A stretch of 5,794 nt of DNA from Thermoplasmata archaeon (GTDB taxonomy: Archaea; Thermoplasmatota; Thermoplasmata; UBA184). Position 1 is the first letter of the stretch. Each line of letters opens with the position of its first letter. Below are positions 1 through 5,794 of the stretch, in pieces. Both the position numbers and the translations under genes were made by a program. The notes beneath the pieces are model-generated. The model had not been told where the DNA came from and did not search any database. It saw nothing but the letters and a program-made list of their open reading frames with translations. The stretch spans positions 1 through 5,794 of the forward strand of contig JAKAVH010000275.1 of assembly GCA_021827545.1 (NCBI GenBank), given 5' to 3'.

Positions 1-1085
1 GAGTGGACCCGGTAGGCGACGGCACGGGCCGTCGTCTGGGCGGGAACGAGGAGCGCATCGGGGAGCACGCGGCCCTTCCCGTCGGTCCAGTGGGTCTCGT
101 CTTCGACCGGGTAGACCACGATCCGTCCGAGACGTTCGAAGACCATGCGTTCGAGCGCGGGCTGGACACCGGTCGACCCCCATCGCGCGAGGACCGCGCG
201 CACTTCGTCGAGCGCTTTGGCTTGCGCGCTCGACAGGCGTTCCGGGTCGCCGACCTCGAAGGTCGGGTCCCCCGGCCGGTACCCTATGAGACCGGCCCGC
301 GCCGCCCGTCGTAGGAGGAGCTCCGCGTCGGACGCGGTCGGCACCACGGGGATCGGGTCGATCGCGGCGGCGAGGGACTTCGCGGCCTCGGGAAGCGCGC
401 GATCGGACTTGTTCGCCGCGACGAGCCGGGGCTTCGACGTTCGCAGGAGCTCGAGCGCAATCCGCTTTCGGTCCGCCTCGGACCAGTGCGCGGGGTGGGC
501 GCGGTCGGCGGGCAGGTGCCGCAGCGCGGCCGCGATCGCGGAGGGAGAGATCGACAGTCCCGTAAGTCGTTCGGCGAGGAACTCCTCGACCTTTCGTCCT
601 TCGATCTCCGTTCCGCGGGCGTGGCGGGCGAAGTCGCGGCCGAGGATCTCGGCGACCCACGCGACCAATTCGTCTTCGAGCCAGCGAACCTCGTCGGCCG
701 GATCGTGGCGGCCCGGAGCGTCGATACGGCCCTCGGCGTCGGTCGCCCCGGAAAGGTCGACGACCTGCACGAACCCGTCCGCCGCCCGGAGGTCGTCGAG
801 AAATTTGTGCCCGAGGCCCTTCCCCGAACTGGCGCCCGGAACAAGCCCCGGCACGTCCACCAGGTTCACCGGGACCCAGCGCGTTCCGTTCACGCACTTC
901 GCGTTCCCCGGAGTGCACGCGGTCGCCTTCTCGACATGCGGGCACGGGGCTCGGACGGCCCCGACCCCCCGGTTCGGCGTGATCGTCGTGAACGGGTACG
1001 GGGCCATCGGGACATCCAGCAATGTCAGCGCGTTGAAGAACGTCGACTTTCCGACGTTCGGCTTTCCGACGACCCCGACCTCCAC
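1..1085 (-). CDS. YchF/OLA1-like archaeal GTPase (C-terminus cut by window edge)
   Basis: This is a translation-factor-class P-loop GTPase of the Obg/YchF group, expected to be cytosolic and ribosome-associated. The 361 residues present include G1 GKPNVGKST (residues 7-15), the switch I region PFTT (31-34), G3 DVPGLVPGA (77-85) and G4 NKSD (225-228). Near the end, STGVQ (304-308), VYPVEDE (324-330) and LPDALLV lead into a TGS-like domain. G4 is NKxD, as in archaeal homologues such as Pyrococcus PH0525, rather than the NxxE of bacterial and eukaryotic YchF/OLA1, so GTP specificity is likely. Cysteines 48, 57 and 64 lie in the insert before G3, a feature of archaeal members. From recalled family lengths near 395-400 residues, about 35-40 C-terminal residues are missing. 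The start is GTG at 1083-1085: it gives MEVGVVGKPN, matching family N-termini, and GGAGG lies 4 bases upstream. It begins 23 bases after the adenosyltransferase stop, so co-transcription is likely. The cellular role of this archaeal subgroup is not well defined. Confidence 0.93.
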   Translation of the reverse strand, partial: MEVGVVGKPNVGKSTFFNALTLLDVPMAPYPFTTITPNRGVGAVRAPCPHVEKATACTPGNAKCVNGTRWVPVNLVDVPGLVPGASSGKGLGHKFLDDLRAADGFVQVVDLSGATDAEGRIDAPGRHDPADEVRWLEDELVAWVAEILGRDFARHARGTEIEGRKVEEFLAERLTGLSISPSAIAAALRHLPADRAHPAHWSEADRKRIALELLRTSKPRLVAANKSDRALPEAAKSLAAAIDPIPVVPTASDAELLLRRAARAGLIGYRPGDPTFEVGDPERLSSAQAKALDEVRAVLARWGSTGVQPALERMVFERLGRIVVYPVEDETHWTDGKGRVLPDALLVPAQTTARAVAYRVH

Positions 1086-1108: not shown

Positions 1109-1684
1109 CTACACGGAATAGTCGGGGGGGATCTCGGAGACGCCCTGTTTCGCGTTCGCGGCCAGCGCGAGGGCAAAGAAGAGATCGCTCAGTCGGTTCG
1201 TCCACGCCAGCAGTTCGGGGCGGACCGGTTCCGAGCGGTTGAGGCTCCAGAGCTCGCGTTCCGCACGGCGGGCGACCGTCCGGCAGACGTGGAGCTCGGC
1301 CGCCGTTCGTGACCCTCCGGGGAGCACAAACGAATGGAGGTCGGGGTGGGCCGCGTCGAAGCGATCGATGTCCGCTTCGAGCCGATGTACGTGGCGCTCC
1401 TCGATACGGTGCGTGGGAACGGCGGCCGACGGCCCCCGGGCAAGCTCGGCCTGGCCGATGTAGAGCTCGTGCTCGAGCCTTCGCAAGACCGCACGGAACT
1501 CGGAGAGCCCTTCGGGGAGATCGGCGATCGCGAGCCCGAGGTGGGCCCCGAGCTCGTCGAGCGTCCCGTAGGCGCGGATGCGGGAGGAGTCCTTGTCTAC
1601 GCGCGGACCACCGGCGAGACCGGTCGTTCCCCGATCGCCCGTGCGGGTGTAGAGACGCGGGATGTTCTCGCCTCCGGCCGCCAC
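1109..1684 (-). CDS. Cob(I)alamin adenosyltransferase, PduO/MMAB type
   Basis: It transfers the adenosyl group of ATP to cob(I)alamin, making adenosylcobalamin for enzymes such as methylmalonyl-CoA mutase or B12-dependent ribonucleotide reductase. In the 191-residue version the N-terminal ATP loop is LYTRTGDRGTTGL (about 11-23), followed by GGPRVDKD and AYGTLDELG. The second half has FVLPGGS, the hallmark CRTVARRAEREL (substrate and ATP contact region) and NRLSDLFFALA near the C-terminus, all expected of the trimeric five-helix-bundle family. Length is normal. The usual DELN/DELS is DELG here, a minor change. The start is uncertain. GTG at 1684 is used here. TTG at 1726 is open in frame but adds a nonconserved tail. 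The conserved family start, (M)xRLYTRTGD, coincides with ATC at 1661-1663, which has a well-spaced GGAGG upstream. The gene follows a possible zinc-finger ORF and precedes the GTPase by 23 bases. No other cobalamin gene is visible, so the link to the neighbours is positional only. Confidence 0.93.
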   Translation of the reverse strand: MAAGGENIPRLYTRTGDRGTTGLAGGPRVDKDSSRIRAYGTLDELGAHLGLAIADLPEGLSEFRAVLRRLEHELYIGQAELARGPSAAVPTHRIEERHVHRLEADIDRFDAAHPDLHSFVLPGGSRTAAELHVCRTVARRAERELWSLNRSEPVRPELLAWTNRLSDLFFALALAANAKQGVSEIPPDYSV

Positions 1685-1824
1685 TGCAACTGGTCCAACG
1701 GAGAACTCAGGCCATGGACGGGACAAAACGAGATGTGCAGCACCTCATTATGCTTGGCGTCCTGTCGGCACAGTCGGCAGATGAACCCGCTCCGTTCGCT
1801 CCACGCAATCCCCATCGGTTCCAT
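1597..1824 (-). CDS. Possible small zinc-finger protein
   Basis: This is a 75-residue reading frame not recognised as a named family. Near the N-terminus Cys16-x2-Cys19 and Cys34-x2-His37 form a plausible single zinc-binding knuckle (CRLC, 14 residues, CPVH). The rest is proline- and arginine-rich and looks like the out-of-frame reading of the adenosyltransferase 5' end. For it: an ATG start 27 bases after the ribbon-helix-helix stop, a GGGAAGGG purine run about 7 bases upstream of the ATG, and a spaced metal-ligand pattern in a stretch otherwise without a gene. Against it: its tail overlaps the adenosyltransferase by 67-88 bp in another frame, which is long for a normal operon overlap. A sequencing or real frameshift near 1660-1750 could mean the true protein ends differently. 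If real it is probably co-transcribed with the neighbours; function unknown, with a nucleic-acid or protein contact role only a guess. Confidence 0.45.
   Translation of the reverse strand: MEPMGIAWSERSGFICRLCRQDAKHNEVLHISFCPVHGLSSPLDQLQWRPEARTSRVSTPARAIGERPVSPVVRA
1671..1675 (-). promoter_or_regulatory. Shine-Dalgarno-like GGAGG inside the presumed 5' end of the adenosyltransferase gene
   Basis: GGAGG is followed by the 7-base spacer CGAGAAC and then ATC (1663-1661), the codon for the residue where this protein family normally begins. The site lies downstream of the GTG and TTG candidates, so it cannot serve them. It may mark a non-AUG start, or it may simply be Gly-Gly codons in a GC-rich gene. 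Confidence 0.35.
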
Positions 1825-1851: not shown

Positions 1852-2253
1852 CTAGCGCCGGAGGAGCCCCCGACCCTCCCGTGCCGCCCGACGTCGGCCC
1901 TCGCGTCGTTCGTGCGCCGACCGCGCACGATCGCGCAGTGCCGGCACGTGTTCCGCGTGGGTGATCGCGAGCTCCCGGATGCCCAGCGTCAGCGCGAGCG
2001 CCACGGCGCTCTCGACGTCGCGGGCGTATCCGTCCTCGACCATTTCCTCGAGCTCGGCCCGCAGGGTCGCGGGTAGCTCAACGCCCGGAGGAGCCGTCTC
2101 TTCGGCCCCCTTCCGCACGAGCTCGCGGATCGCTTCGGACCGGTTCGCGAGATTGCGGTGCGTCTGGAACCGATCGAGGAGCGACGCCTCCTCGGACGTG
2201 AGGCGCACGCCGAGAAAGTGGGTCGCGGGAGCGTTGGCTCGAGCGGTCCGCAC
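1852..2253 (-). CDS. Ribbon-helix-helix (CopG/Arc-like) protein with two RHH-like modules
   Basis: This is a likely DNA-binding regulator. Residues 13-49 show a ribbon-helix-helix pattern: the strand FLGVRL, helix A SEEASLLDRF, and helix B RSEAIRELVRKG, whose RSEAIR core is typical of the CopG/Arc/MetJ superfamily. Residues 58-95 repeat the layout: the strand VELPATL, then LRAELEEMVEDGY, then RDVESAVALALTLGIREL, so the protein may carry two tandem modules. The C-terminal 25 residues are strongly arginine-rich (RREGRRRAAREGRG) and could contact nucleic acid nonspecifically. The start is GTG at 2251-2253, with an in-frame TAA shortly upstream and a TATA-like box at the right distance for a leaderless mRNA. 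It is the first gene of the minus-strand cluster and divergent from cas1, so it could regulate itself or the divergent promoter; the sequence does not show an operator. Base composition fits the host block rather than the mobile block. An antitoxin role is possible, but no toxin is adjacent. Confidence 0.75.
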   Translation of the reverse strand: MRTARANAPATHFLGVRLTSEEASLLDRFQTHRNLANRSEAIRELVRKGAEETAPPGVELPATLRAELEEMVEDGYARDVESAVALALTLGIRELAITHAEHVPALRDRARSAHERREGRRRAAREGRGLLRR

Positions 2254-2276
2254 GTGTTTTACATAAATTTAACACA

Positions 2277-2283
2277 TATTTAG
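2277..2283 (-). promoter_or_regulatory. TATA-like promoter element for the RHH gene
   Basis: Minus-strand CTAAATA, centred about 27 bases upstream of the GTG at 2253, sits in the most AT-rich patch of the window. This is the archaeal TATA-box spacing for a transcript starting at the start codon. A second AT-rich run (TTAAATTTATG, 2262-2272) is too close to the start to serve the same role. Confidence 0.5.
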
Positions 2284-2294
2284 ACGTTGCTCAC

Positions 2295-2306
2295 CTGACG
2301 TTTAAC
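2295..2306 (+). repeat. Weak candidate left inverted-repeat half (CTGACGTTTAAC)
   Basis: It matches the reverse complement of 5711-5722 at 10 of 12 positions, including seven consecutive bases. Similarity does not extend on either side, and a seven-base match between two regions of this size is close to chance, so it is only a hint of terminal inverted repeats. Confidence 0.2.
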
Positions 2307-2310
2307 AATA
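2301..2310 (+). promoter_or_regulatory. Possible TATA element upstream of cas1
   Basis: TTTAACAATA is the only AT-rich run in the right part of the divergent region. Transcription starting about 25-27 bases downstream would give a 5' leader near 45 bases containing the purine-rich stretch 2356-2365 and GGTG at 2371-2374 before the ATG. No TATA-like sequence exists at leaderless distance from 2379, so cas1 would be expressed differently from its neighbours. Confidence 0.3.
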
Positions 2311-2378
2311 GGGGGCATGGCGTCTCCAAACCCAGCAAGATACATCCGGCGGTAAGGGGAGGGGGCTCTTGGTGCTCC

Positions 2379-3248
2379 ATGAGACCCCTTGTGATCGCCG
2401 AATACTCGTCATGTTTGAAGGTGCGGAACGGGAAGCTCGTTCTGAGGCTGCAAGGCCAGAAGGTCGAGCAGGAATGGGCTCCGGGAGCGTTCCCTTACGA
2501 TACGGTGGTCTGCGATCCTATGGGCGGCTTTGTCACGTTTCCCGCTCTCCGCTGGCTTGCCGATAGGGGCGTAGTGCTGACTCTCCTGAACTTTGACGGG
2601 CGGCCGGTACTCACGGCCCTTCCCGACCACCCAATCAACGGACGAGATCGTATCGCCCAGCTGAAAGCCTACTCGAACCCCCAGAAACGTGTCGAGATGG
2701 CGCGCGAGATACTGCGGGCGAAAGTCGGTCGAGAGGTCCCACAAGACCTGCGTGACCTCAACCGGCTGCGGATGTGGGAGGCCGAGATTGCGGCTCGATA
2801 CTGGTCCGACCTTGGTATTGTGAGGGATTACCCTAAGGCTCGCGACCCCACGAACGCGGCCATCAACTACAGCTTCGGCCTCCTCGAGAGCGTCACGCGC
2901 CGCATGATACATCGTTTGGGCCTCGAGCCATCAATCGGCTTCCTCCATGTGCCCCGAGGTCCATCGGACGGGAAATCTGCGTTCGTCTACGATGTGATGG
3001 AACCCTACCGTGAGACCGCCGCCCGAGTCGCGCTTGCCGAGAGGCCGAGGCGCGCAGATTACTTCGTGATGTTTGGCGGGACCGTCCGGCTGCGCCAAGG
3101 ATTCACTCAAGCTCTCGCCCGACGCTTCGCGAAGGCGTTTCCCGAGCGCGAAATGGGCGAGTGGCTTAGGCGCCTCACCCTTCGTATGGCCCTGCCTCCG
3201 CTCTCCAATCTCCCAGGTCCTCAGCCGTCTCTTCCTGAGCGACCATAG
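2379..3248 (+). CDS. cas1: Solo Cas1 integrase (probable casposase)
   Basis: This is a metal-dependent integrase of the Cas1 family that joins DNA 3' ends to target DNA. The 289 residues match Cas1 throughout. The N-terminal beta domain contains SCLKVRNGKLVLR (11-23), GGFVTFPALRWLADRGV (49-65) and the linker motif DRIAQLKAY. The helical domain carries the catalytic residues: Glu134 in WEAEIAARYW, His190 in SIGFLHVPRG, and Asp205 with Glu208 in VYDVMEPYR. NYSFGLLES (163-171) is the usual helix after Glu134. All ligands are intact, so the enzyme is probably active. The ATG start fits the family N-terminus; GGTG lies 4 bases upstream and a longer GGGGAGGGGG run lies further back. No cas2, other cas gene or CRISPR repeat is present, and a PolB gene converges on it, which identifies it as a casposon-type Cas1 rather than an adaptation protein. 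Unlike several described casposases it has no evident C-terminal helix-turn-helix extension, ending in a short Pro-rich tail. The last 74 bp overlap the polymerase 3' end on the other strand. Confidence 0.93.
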   Translation: MRPLVIAEYSSCLKVRNGKLVLRLQGQKVEQEWAPGAFPYDTVVCDPMGGFVTFPALRWLADRGVVLTLLNFDGRPVLTALPDHPINGRDRIAQLKAYSNPQKRVEMAREILRAKVGREVPQDLRDLNRLRMWEAEIAARYWSDLGIVRDYPKARDPTNAAINYSFGLLESVTRRMIHRLGLEPSIGFLHVPRGPSDGKSAFVYDVMEPYRETAARVALAERPRRADYFVMFGGTVRLRQGFTQALARRFAKAFPEREMGEWLRRLTLRMALPPLSNLPGPQPSLPERP

Positions 3249-5232
3249 GGCGCCGACCGAAATTCGGCAGGTTGGGTGCACTCACTTCATCGTAGCCGAT
3301 GTCACGCTCGGGCAAGGTCCAGTAAAGTCGCCGAGATGGATTGTCCATTGCAGTGAACTTCGGCTTGGGGGCGAGATATCGCTTGCCGACCGCTCCGAGA
3401 CGGATTTCCTTTGGAACACTTGCCCAAGTCCTCGCATGATACCGTGACTGATGGGAGGCCCATCGGTGACCTATGAATCGCTTCAGCACATGAGTAACGG
3501 TTTGAGCACCATTCATCCAGCCCTCGTTGACTAGATCCCACGGCACGTTGCGGTTCGCGAACCCCCTCGCTCGGGTAATCCACTCCCCGTCCTTCTGTAG
3601 ACGATAGACTCCCGATTGGAGCGACTGCATTGCGTCGAAAGTCTCGCACTTCAGGGCCCCGAACTCGTCCGATACAGGTTCAACTTTGCCAAGAGTGTGT
3701 CCATCATCTGCTGAATCCAAGAGGCACAGAGGGGAAGTCGAGTAGACGGCATCGGTGCAGAACGAGATGATCTCGGTCTCATCACCCGAGTTGAAGTCAT
3801 CCAACATCTCCCATAGTCGCGCCCTGGTCATCGAGGTGATCAGCCCGGCATAGCACGGATGGTGAAACGTCGGCCGGACTCGACCCATGTGGCCATCGAC
3901 CTCCCCAATGCGCATGGAGGTCTGCTGCGCTAGCTTGCCATAGGCCGAATTCTGTCCCACCTTCAACGAGTGCGCCGGACCCGTGAGACCCCGCCGCTTC
4001 AGGTCGAGGGTCTGCCGATACACGTCAGCTTGCCAGCCGAACGGAGGGATGTTGTTCTTTGAAGCGATGAAATGCCAGCCATCTGAGAACCTCAGGAACT
4101 TGAGCATCCAAGGTTGAATCTCGGGAGCCCAGACCCAGCCGGTTCCTCGGGGTGGGTAGAACACAGCTCCGTTCTCAGCCCTCCACGGGAACGGGTAGAA
4201 CCGCCATCCCTCAGGGAAGTCCCAGCTGACTCGGTAGAGGGACCACCGTGACCTAGTTCTGAAGCGGAACGAGCGTTCCCAGGTCCCTTCCGAAAGATCG
4301 GGTAGAAGCGACATCGCATAGGGGTAGGCCCGATTGATGTCGTACTCGTAAACGGGGCCAAAGTAGGACCCGAACGCCGCACACTCAATCCGTCCGCCGA
4401 AGAATGCCGCGTATGCCGCCTTCTCGACTTGTGGCGGTGCCGGCATGATTGTGACGTGATACTTCTTGAACAGGGCGACCGCGAGATTCGCAGGCGAGTA
4501 GAAGTCTGATGACTGAAGGCCGGCGTCCTCGCGAGCCGACTTGAGCGCCCTGGCGAGGAGTACGAGCAGTTGCAGCTCGACTCGATTGTAGAGTTGGACA
4601 GATCCGTCCTCGAACGCGGCTCGGGTGAAAGCGCCCCGTAGTGCTTTCCCTTCGTGGAGGACTGACCTCTGCAGCGGTGTGATGTTCGGGAGCCACTCCT
4701 CGACCGCTTTTTCGAACGAGCAGGCGAAGTAGGAGAACACGTCGTCTATCCTAACCCGAGGACCTTTGACTGGCTTCCCGTCGACGGTCAGGACCCGGGT
4801 GATTTCGAACCGCTTCCTGGGCCAGAGTCGGATACGGTACGGGCCGTATAGGCAGCGTCCTGTTTCGTCTAGGATCTTCACGCGGTCCCGGTTCGTCGGT
4901 ATCCAGTACTCACTTTCGTACCCGAAGGAATAGCTCACGTAGATTGCGGGGCCGAATATCCTCGGAAGGGACAGGAGGAACTCCCAGCACTCCCGCGGAC
5001 TGAGGCCGTTCGGGTTGTAGACGCTCTCGAAATGGCCCCCATCTGACGCCGCCAGGTAGACGTAGAGGTGCCTCCCCGAATCATCGAATCCCTCCCCGTC
5101 GATGGCCACAAAGCGATTTCGTGCCATCGCAAAACCGGCCCTGGTCGTGTGGGTCTCCCCACGGTTGGGTCGGTGGGTGCGGTCGTACTCTCGGTGGTAT
5201 GCTCGGCGTTGTTCAGCGTTTGCCGCGGTCAT
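3175..5232 (-). CDS. polB: Family B DNA polymerase, protein-primed-like, of a casposon
   Basis: This is a DNA polymerase presumed to replicate the mobile element. In the 685-residue version the N-terminal exonuclease domain has Exo I AIDGEG (Asp45, Glu47), an Exo II candidate SFGYE (Glu106 where Asp is usual) and an Exo III candidate YNRVE (215-219, Glu219 where Asp is usual). The polymerase domain has motif A YDINRAYPYAM (Asp298), motif B KVGQNSAYG (424-432) and motif C SFCTDAVYS (490-498). KRY (617-619) resembles the KxY of protein-primed enzymes. Aligned by eye with phi29 YCDTDSI, motif C keeps the second Asp (Asp494), but Cys492 replaces the first. The size and the long segment between motifs A and B, room for TPR-like insertions, fit protein-primed PolB better than the larger cellular PolB. 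ATG at 5232 overlaps the stop of the upstream small gene (ATGA), with a GGGGG run about 12 bases upstream. Met36 is an alternative start just before Exo I; an open extension to 5484 is unlikely because it crosses the small gene in another frame. Composition is lower in GC than the host genes. Confidence 0.9.
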   Translation of the reverse strand: MTAANAEQRRAYHREYDRTHRPNRGETHTTRAGFAMARNRFVAIDGEGFDDSGRHLYVYLAASDGGHFESVYNPNGLSPRECWEFLLSLPRIFGPAIYVSYSFGYESEYWIPTNRDRVKILDETGRCLYGPYRIRLWPRKRFEITRVLTVDGKPVKGPRVRIDDVFSYFACSFEKAVEEWLPNITPLQRSVLHEGKALRGAFTRAAFEDGSVQLYNRVELQLLVLLARALKSAREDAGLQSSDFYSPANLAVALFKKYHVTIMPAPPQVEKAAYAAFFGGRIECAAFGSYFGPVYEYDINRAYPYAMSLLPDLSEGTWERSFRFRTRSRWSLYRVSWDFPEGWRFYPFPWRAENGAVFYPPRGTGWVWAPEIQPWMLKFLRFSDGWHFIASKNNIPPFGWQADVYRQTLDLKRRGLTGPAHSLKVGQNSAYGKLAQQTSMRIGEVDGHMGRVRPTFHHPCYAGLITSMTRARLWEMLDDFNSGDETEIISFCTDAVYSTSPLCLLDSADDGHTLGKVEPVSDEFGALKCETFDAMQSLQSGVYRLQKDGEWITRARGFANRNVPWDLVNEGWMNGAQTVTHVLKRFIGHRWASHQSRYHARTWASVPKEIRLGAVGKRYLAPKPKFTAMDNPSRRLYWTLPERDIGYDEVSAPNLPNFGRRPMVAQEETAEDLGDWRAEAGPYEG

Positions 5233-5639
5233 GCGTTGTAGATCCCCCTGTAGGATTCCGGAGCGCGTCCTAGGCCCTCGGAGCGGAACCTCTCCCTTGC
5301 CGCCTCTTGCTGAGCGGTCAACGGGCGAGGAATCCGCCCCCGGGGCTGAGAACCACGGATGCGATTCGCCCGTCCTTTCTCGGGGACGTTCCAGTTGTGT
5401 TCTCGGAGGAAGCGTCGCCAGTCGGCCTCTTCCTTCGCAGTGAGCCGATAACTGTGCCGAACCGGATTGTAGATGGGATGCCACCTTCCTGCGTACTCGG
5501 GGTGGATCTGGATGAACCCGTAGACGGCCGAGGCGAGGCGGGCCCGCTCCGAACGCTTGCGTTCGTATTCGGCCAGTGGGTGGGCACGATAGTATCGACC
5601 ACCTGCCGAGCGAGGCTTGTTCCGACCCTGGTGCTGCAT
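5229..5639 (-). CDS. Small arginine-rich protein coupled to PolB; candidate terminal protein
   Basis: I do not recognise the family of this 136-residue protein. It is very basic (about 25 Arg and 4 Lys against 13 Asp/Glu) and rich in aromatics (9 Tyr, 4 Trp or more His-flanked aromatics around 46-64). The N-terminus is disordered-looking and basic, the middle (65-80, LTAKEEADWRRFLREH) is probably helical, and residues 88-106 are an Arg-Gly-Pro linker. No signal peptide, membrane segment or zinc motif is visible. It is the first gene of a two-gene transcript: a TATA box sits about 27 bases upstream of its ATG, and its TGA stop overlaps the polymerase ATG by four bases, implying linked translation. 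In protein-primed replicons a basic terminal protein is often encoded just before the polymerase, and several Tyr residues could serve as priming hydroxyls. That position and charge are the only support for such a role; a DNA-binding or packaging protein is equally possible. Coding status is supported by the ATGA junction and promoter spacing. Confidence 0.72.
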   Translation of the reverse strand: MQHQGRNKPRSAGGRYYRAHPLAEYERKRSERARLASAVYGFIQIHPEYAGRWHPIYNPVRHSYRLTAKEEADWRRFLREHNWNVPEKGRANRIRGSQPRGRIPRPLTAQQEAARERFRSEGLGRAPESYRGIYNA

Positions 5640-5662
5640 CGTGTACTATGTGGTCAGCCTGG

Positions 5663-5670
5663 TAAATAAA
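5663..5670 (-). promoter_or_regulatory. TATA-box promoter of the small-gene/polB operon
   Basis: Minus-strand TTTATTTA is centred 27 bases upstream of the ATG at 5639. With the GC-rich sequence on both sides this is a clear archaeal TATA element and predicts a leaderless transcript covering the small basic protein gene and, by coupling, the polymerase gene. Confidence 0.6.
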
Positions 5671-5710
5671 CCGTGGAGAAGGTAGGGGGGTATCAGCTCC
5701 GGACCACTGC

Positions 5711-5722
5711 GTTTCACGTCAG
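5711..5722 (-). repeat. Weak candidate right inverted-repeat half (CTGACGTGAAAC on minus)
   Basis: Partner of 2295-2306 in inverted orientation. It lies outside the small-gene promoter and immediately beside the tandem repeat at 5722, where a casposon end might be expected. Confidence 0.2.
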
Positions 5723-5745
5723 AAAACAGGCCCGAAAACAGGCTC
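5722..5745 (+). repeat. Two tandem 12-bp repeats (GAAAACAGGCYC)
   Basis: GAAAACAGGCCC is followed directly by GAAAACAGGCTC, matching at 11 of 12 positions. It lies upstream of the small-gene/polB promoter near the presumed right end of the element. Short direct repeats here could bind a replication or integration protein, but two copies give no proof of function. Confidence 0.5.
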
Positions 5746-5794
5746 GATGTTGCGAGTATATTATTGGATGAACCAGTTGTATGATCCGTTCAGA

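Follow-up and report, generated by a model that had tools for sequence, protein, structure and literature searches.

A very probable casposon with a protein-primed-type polymerase in a Thermoplasmata archaeon, its relatives and its target sites

Casposons, DNA transposons that use Cas1 as their integrase, are widely regarded as the origin of the adaptation enzymes of clustered regularly interspaced short palindromic repeats (CRISPR) systems (passages of PMC6452270 and PMC4046053). Published casposons of family 2 measure 6–16 kb, and tandem casposons are known in Methanosarcina and Thaumarchaeota (passages of PMC10359463 and PMC6563490). Here we analyse a stretch of 5,794 nucleotides from a Thermoplasmata archaeon (contig JAKAVH010000275.1 of assembly GCA_021827545.1; hereafter the window), which is identical in 5,791 of its 5,794 bases to contig C10 of a genome that we call G000. 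The window very probably holds part of a casposon, given its terminal inverted repeats (TIRs), target-site duplications (TSDs) of 14–15 bp, empty sites, the position of its Cas1 in a phylogenetic tree and the lack of Cas2, and it carries the left 3.5 kb of one such element. A sequence-only reading of the same DNA had suggested a casposon, possibly of a new lineage in a GC-rich archaeon, and the same lines of evidence now support both suggestions. The lineage is supported as new relative to family 2, because the helix–turn–helix (HTH) domain is missing, the polymerase is of another type and the Cas1 tree, whose rows hold no sequences of families 1, 3, 4 and 5, sets it apart. The open literature on casposons and casposases, in the titles, abstracts and passages covered (subscription papers fall outside this scope), holds no description of the group that we could find. 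The main text of a paper on the Lutacidiplasmatales (PMC9287336) makes no mention of casposon, CRISPR, Cas1 or transposon, and passages of PMC10354927 report only a casposon-associated protein in E-plasma.

The features that mark a casposon occur here together: a solo Cas1 with an intact active site that groups with casposases, a family B polymerase, TIRs, and a TSD with an empty site. The element begins at position 2311, directly after the TSD (Table 1), and the start at 2295 given by the sequence-only reading lay within one base of that duplication. Its right end is found on another contig of G000, C9, 2.9 kb from the contig's end, and beyond it stands a gene which, by eye, looks like an M29 aminopeptidase. 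The terminal GGGGGCA of the left TIR is common to two complete elements in related genomes. One, in G181 (L044), measures 5,751 bp, with perfect 78-bp TIRs beginning GGGGGCACCCCCC and an exact 14-bp TSD GTTCTGCGCGGTTC; the other, in G169 (L042), measures 4,735 bp, with perfect 59-bp TIRs and an exact 15-bp TSD AGCTGTTTAACAGAA. The TIRs and TSDs that the sequence-only reading had asked for are thus present in two complete relatives, and in the window copy across two contigs.

When 376,304 bases from chosen loci were scanned for pairs of GGGG[CT]A ends with near-identical flanks of 14–16 bp, five pairs came up, namely four elements and one pair formed by the outer ends of two abutting ones, against no pairs in each of 20 shuffles and no pairs in the same orientation. 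A motif-free scan for TIRs and TSDs listed four rows. Two are the elements of G169 and G181 and one is another casposon, in G380; the fourth, in G230, we rejected, as it has no clean TSD and its 13-bp flank match is the palindromic end itself. This second scan missed two small elements discussed below, whose ends agree perfectly over only 7 bases. The casposon in G380 (L052:4345-14199) is complete at 9,855 bp, with an exact 14-bp repeat CAAGCTCGGATGGG and ends GGGGTGATACCAAT, and its 401-aa Cas1 groups with family-2-like casposases. A further related element, with ends not found, occurs in G308 (L153), where a polymerase matching PF03175 lies about 3 kb from a longer, divergent Cas1.

Element bases amount to 4,630 bp on C10, the window's contig, and 2,929 bp on C9, so that a single insertion would make the window copy no shorter than 7,559 bp. 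The earlier proposal of a near-minimal element, all in about 3.3 kb with a right edge at 5722, therefore does not hold for this copy; near-minimal is a fair description of the complete relatives when set against family 2. No right end was seen in the window or on to the contig end, and the 7-bp inverted match CTGACGT/ACGTCAG that would place one at 5722 was rejected, because both the TSD and the TIR are found again on C9. Among the repeat families listed for the flank, none gave another element end. Separately, TTTCACGTCAGAA occurs at window positions 5712-5724 and at L003:15914-15926, 202 bp apart; its reverse complement resembles the TSD, and the pair may be either a degenerate target copy or chance. 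The last bases of the window (5791-5794) are unlike the G000 contig, which is probably a contig-end artefact.

The Cas1 matches PF01867 at 95.1 bits (cut-off 22.3), and residues E134, H190, D205 and E208 are conserved throughout the alignment (42 of 42 rows, counting that of the window), in agreement with the intact Cas1 (Glu134, His190, Asp205) described earlier. Our careful tree of 58 rows, rooted at the midpoint after fragments, near-duplicates and long branches had been dropped, recovers a core family of 22 rows (support 100/98) and a CRISPR set of 18 rows next to Cas2 plus 7cr6 (100/99). With a support of 93/97, the core family groups with the casposase of M. mazei and with family-2-like casposases, outside the CRISPR set; the two known casposases fall together with a support of only 55/85, and a quick tree of 84 rows agrees with the careful one. 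The sampled genome G013 is presumably A. boonei. Judged by sequence, then, this Cas1 is a clade of its own on the casposase side, apart from Cas2-linked Cas1. Some Cas1 match occurs in 71 of 400 genomes of the class, near-full-length matches over 40% identical are confined to six (G000, G073, G169, G181, G278 and G317), with partial ones in G201 and G353, and a protein search returned 47 proteins, the query's own included. The enzyme is compact with no extra domain over cut-off, as in family 1; a match to HTH_33 within the length of Cas1 (13.7 bits against a cut-off of 25, E 0.05) does not amount to the C-terminal HTH of family 2. Gene calling with a codon model missed the element genes of the window copy and yet called cas1 in G317 and G073 and polB in G169; this signal is weak and was not used.

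That this Cas1 could be the adaptation gene of a degraded CRISPR-Cas locus has next to no probability in our view. It does exceed the NCBIfam cas1 cut-off (94.6 against 71.7 bits), but its partner is a PolB, its phylogeny is on the casposase side, and no Cas2 match was found in the G000 genome, which is 83% complete. The claim of the sequence-only reading that neither Cas2 nor CRISPR is present stands for Cas2 in that genome; for CRISPR it reaches no further than L003:11000-16940, where no CRISPR-like array was seen among the 20 largest of 48 direct-repeat families, the whole genome not having been searched.

Evidence for mobility comes from the target sites. We joined the flanks of the G181 element with one TSD copy into a query of length 900, and an uninterrupted empty site was found in three of the five other genomes of its genus (G287 1-899, G275 1-900 and G213 1-886; 69–71%), with alignments that cross the insertion junction without a break. 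G209 matches the query in two neighbouring pieces, and G260 on the right only. The G181 TSD overlaps, by eye, the start codon of a Cdc6/Orc1-like gene, whose AAA and Cdc6_C matches fall below cut-off. The window copy is inserted upstream of rhh, a gene whose product has a ribbon–helix–helix (RHH)-like N-terminus and whose upstream boxes are found again in relatives, whether or not these have an element end there, and this region presumably serves as an operator. Among the 30 best rhh loci, 27 were readable (L071, L078 and L093 were not), and in five of these 27 the third GTTTAACA-like box runs straight into an element end. L069 and L083, which carry GGGGGC without the A, do not count towards the five, and other genomes, fetched because they had an end at this site, are outside the count altogether. 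Occupancy was scored on the operator side alone because the M29 aminopeptidase gene, tried and rejected as a fixed right flank, is near rhh in several genomes but differs among them in orientation and paralogue (G389 vs G365, G236 and G009).

These sites also bear on whether the locus is instead a vertically kept, domesticated cas1-polB pair next to rhh that is not mobile now, a reading that is very improbable and already mostly refuted. Cas1 does adjoin rhh in G000, G169, G317 and, in another genus, G201, with a decayed copy in G353 and a copy 3.3 kb from rhh in G278. Against this, 22 of the 27 readable rhh sites show no end, G181 and G073 carry their elements elsewhere (G073 has a Cas1 of this clade with an adjoining GGGGGCACCCCC end, and no end at its rhh site), three congeners of G181 retain the single target, and TSDs are exact and TIRs perfect. 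The finding that the sequence-only reading had named as fatal, one locus conserved across a lineage with no empty sites, is therefore only half seen: several genomes share the site, while most readable sites are without an end. The copy in G278 has an HFX_2341-like/DUF6293 protein (L040:2897-3667) between rhh and cas1.

Two Cas1-less elements were found alongside the complete ones. In G169 (L042:3723-5315), a stretch of 1,593 bp borders directly on the casposon, with a single target copy between the two; the target copy on the outer side of the stretch matches in 14 of 15 bases, but the ends of the stretch match in only 11 of 25. The element in G335 (L121:464-1517), 1,054 bp long, is inserted at the rhh site; its 15-bp TSD is exact, and its ends match in 19 of 25 bases. 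A single GACTGTTTAACAAAA in G230 has, by eye, an element end on either side. Since both small elements carry the GGGGGCA end of the casposons, it is plausible that they were moved in trans by the Cas1 of this clade. A broader hypothesis is that we are looking at a new family, combining a casposase with a tectivirus-type protein-primed polymerase, for which the RHH operator box acts as a leader and collects arrays of autonomous and Cas1-less mini-casposons split by duplicated target. We put this forward only tentatively, as a possibility that falls short of likely, and its standing is lowered because the ends of one small element agree in just 11 of 25 bases. If true, the order repeat-element-repeat-element beside a leader would be a living analogue of the step proposed to lead from casposon to CRISPR array.

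The polymerase gene converges on cas1, the two 3' ends overlapping by 74 bp. Read from its ATG, PolB matches PHROG 11768 (DNA polymerase) at 138 bits, contains exonuclease and palm motifs and has a phi29 fold, with tectivirus polymerases as its nearest annotated relatives, which confirms the convergent family B polymerase of the sequence-only reading and supports its description as protein-primed-like. This kinship raises the question of a viral origin. The element would then be a provirus or the relic of a tectivirus-like virus, one that gained Cas1, as is reported for Streptomyces Toil-like prophages, and whose capsid genes were lost; this seems quite improbable to us. Matches of PolB in phages by tblastn come from 14 records, of which the three opened are all Tectiviridae, Cas1-encoding Toil-like prophages exist and were once filed as casposon family 3 (passages of PMC5894146), and a 157-aa protein of the G169 element has one weak match to a head maturation protease (E 0.021). 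However, the tested open reading frames (ORFs) of the two complete elements contain no capsid or packaging gene over cut-off in Pfam or PHROGs, searches that divergent capsids can escape, and a comparison of Cas1 with 50,697 phage records gave no match at E 1e-3. Two viral Cas1 contigs, L037 and L038, were tried as stand-ins for family 1 and rejected as phage-like loci, by eye, rather than casposons; on the IMG/VR contig L037, the Cas1 homologue (6777-7752) lies at the contig end and other ORFs resemble phage structural genes by eye.

Another reading, that the element is a plain member of casposon family 1 that spread from Thaumarchaeota to soil Thermoplasmatota, we consider unlikely. Family 1 has a similar architecture, with a Cas1 without extra domains, a protein-primed PolB and three small genes (passages of PMC4046053), and here one shared small gene lies directly upstream of polB, while the elements of G169 and G181 have other small ORFs as well. 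In the literature, however, the PolB of family 1 is sister to His1/His2. In our quick PolB tree, whose rows were chosen by similarity to the window PolB and include no family 1 PolB, His1/His2 form a long branch of their own (2.02), and the fork that unites the casposon PolBs with Toil and Badulia (Shimodaira–Hasegawa-like approximate likelihood ratio test, SH-aLRT, 91) leaves WheeHeim and PRD1 outside; G347 has a very long branch (5.66), which makes its placement meaningless. The Cas1 tree took in no thaumarchaeal casposase. As a side observation, P0002 and P0056, both on contigs of 17,418 and inferred to be on the same one, apparently combine a close Cas1 relative with a PolB only 50% identical, which suggests exchange of polB between elements.

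The third gene, coupled to polB as the sequence-only reading had it, overlaps the polB start by 4 bp. Its 136-aa product has seven database matches, itself included, and a weak predicted structure (mean predicted local distance difference test score, pLDDT, 69.4). It resembles a 97-aa protein of G169 and a 98-aa protein of G181 directly upstream of polB (E 0.006 and 0.028, weak values since the comparison took in only 16 proteins), and these two are 79.5% identical to each other over 83 residues. A place directly by polB matches that of terminal proteins in protein-primed systems (passages of PMC4046053), and we hypothesize that the 136-aa protein may be a terminal protein or replication partner. 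As for cargo, the 253-aa protein past the window has no family match and is absent at E 1e-3 from all other genomes of the 78 in the genus, and a 775-aa protein on C9 (L053:8275-10602), probably cargo of the window element, reaches 22.5 bits against Mrr_cat (cut-off 21), with a sub-threshold PIN match; PADLOC gave no match at E 0.01 for either. No Pfam match to HNH was found in the ORFs of the complete G169 and G181 elements, the gap in G000 being unseen, and the 98-aa G181 protein has a weak PHROG match to a homing endonuclease (E 0.024).

Taken as a casposon, the element may work as follows. The predicted Cas1 would join the GGGGGCA ends to the target by a 14–15 bp staggered insertion that duplicates it; the duplication is seen, and the enzymatic step is modelled on characterised casposases. 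The protein-primed-type PolB would copy the element, and the small coupled protein would probably assist it, either as a terminal protein or as a partner in replication. Within the genus, the operator-like box upstream of rhh appears to be the preferred target, and each insertion would leave a new box copy, so that elements, Cas1-less ones too, could stack, a pattern seen in few genomes and presuming movement in trans. Several points weigh against this account. With the right end on a contig other than C10, the two ends may come from two stacked elements instead of one, and no exact overlap of at least 12 bases links the ends of C10 and C9. Residue 106 of the window PolB is E, against D in the other 37 of 38 rows. 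Furthermore, the M. mazei casposase (6opm) is inactive in vitro without its HTH (passages of PMC6977970), and because the present Cas1 has none, another protein may be needed for integration. A small HTH-less family with defined ends and targets, and likely with natural non-autonomous partners of 1.05–1.6 kb and stacking, would be a simpler system for studying HTH-free target recognition, and would also make it possible to ask if an array can arise from repeated insertions at a single leader-like site.

The left 2.25 kb of the window is host chromosome, and the element part has a G+C content of 59.8% against 68.9% in the left flank. By DNA search, the host left block has some match in 74 of the 78 genomes of the genus, its own included; in a few (e.g. 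G314, G368 and G383) the match is short and chance-like. Passages of PMC9287336 place Thermoplasmata archaeon SubAcS13-24 in the Lutacidiplasmatales, and we infer that the host is a soil archaeon of, or near, that order, the order of G000 following from the family it shares with G201.

Table 1. Features of the window, with positions counted from its first base.
Feature	Position	Strand	Basis or remark
YchF-related GTPase, host flank, off window edge	1..1085	-	NF007171, 441 bits; start from gene caller
cob(I)alamin adenosyltransferase, host flank	1109..1726	-	PF01923, 180 bits
rhh gene, host flank outside element	1852..2253	-	weak RHH/NikR-like N-terminus
operator-like region upstream of rhh, insertion hotspot	2254..2295	.	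TTTAACA-like boxes
left TSD TGACGTTTAACAATA, 15 bp	2296..2310	+	identical 15 bp after right TIR on C9
left TIR GGGGGCATGGCGTCTCCAAACCCAG	2311..2335	+	24/25 bases equal to right end on C9
cas1, casposase, 289 aa, no C-terminal HTH domain over cut-off	2379..3248	+	
polB, phi29-fold family B polymerase with exonuclease motifs, 685 aa	3175..5232	-	
small basic protein, 136 aa, coupled to polB; candidate terminal protein	5229..5639	-	
element interior, continuing past window end	5640..5794	.	253-aa ORF at L003 16078-16839, then contig end

Among known systems, the proposed casposase family 5 from hot springs, compared here by its description, also lacks the HTH and keeps the active-site residues, but in print it stands close to subtype I-A CRISPR Cas1 and in most cases has no PolB (passages of PMC9755687), whereas our element has a PolB and a casposase-side Cas1. 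The Streptomyces Toil-like prophages (StrAlb-C1, formerly family 3; passages of PMC5894146) likewise combine Cas1 with a Toil-like tectivirus polymerase; their description sets them apart as bacterial and equipped with a capsid gene, whereas no such gene was recognised here. Family 1 (the thaumarchaeal NitAR1-C1; passages of PMC4046053 and PMC6563490) shares the compact HTH-less Cas1, the protein-primed-type PolB, small genes upstream of polB, TIRs and TSDs, and tandem insertion is reported for it. It differs in host phylum, in a PolB that in our quick tree is here nearer tectiviruses than His1/His2, and in its targets, the commonest published one being ef-2, whereas those found here are 5' regions (the rhh operator and the cdc6 start). 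Family 2 (A. boonei AciBoo-C1, M. mazei) contains the nearest solved and sampled casposases (6opm and G013), with TSDs of 14–15 bp and known tandem insertion. Compared with that family, the elements described here have no C-terminal HTH on Cas1, no clear HNH that we could find and a phi29-type rather than an RNA-primed PolB, and, in the one family for which size was compared, the complete elements of G169 and G181 are smaller, at 4.7 and 5.8 kb against 6–16 kb.

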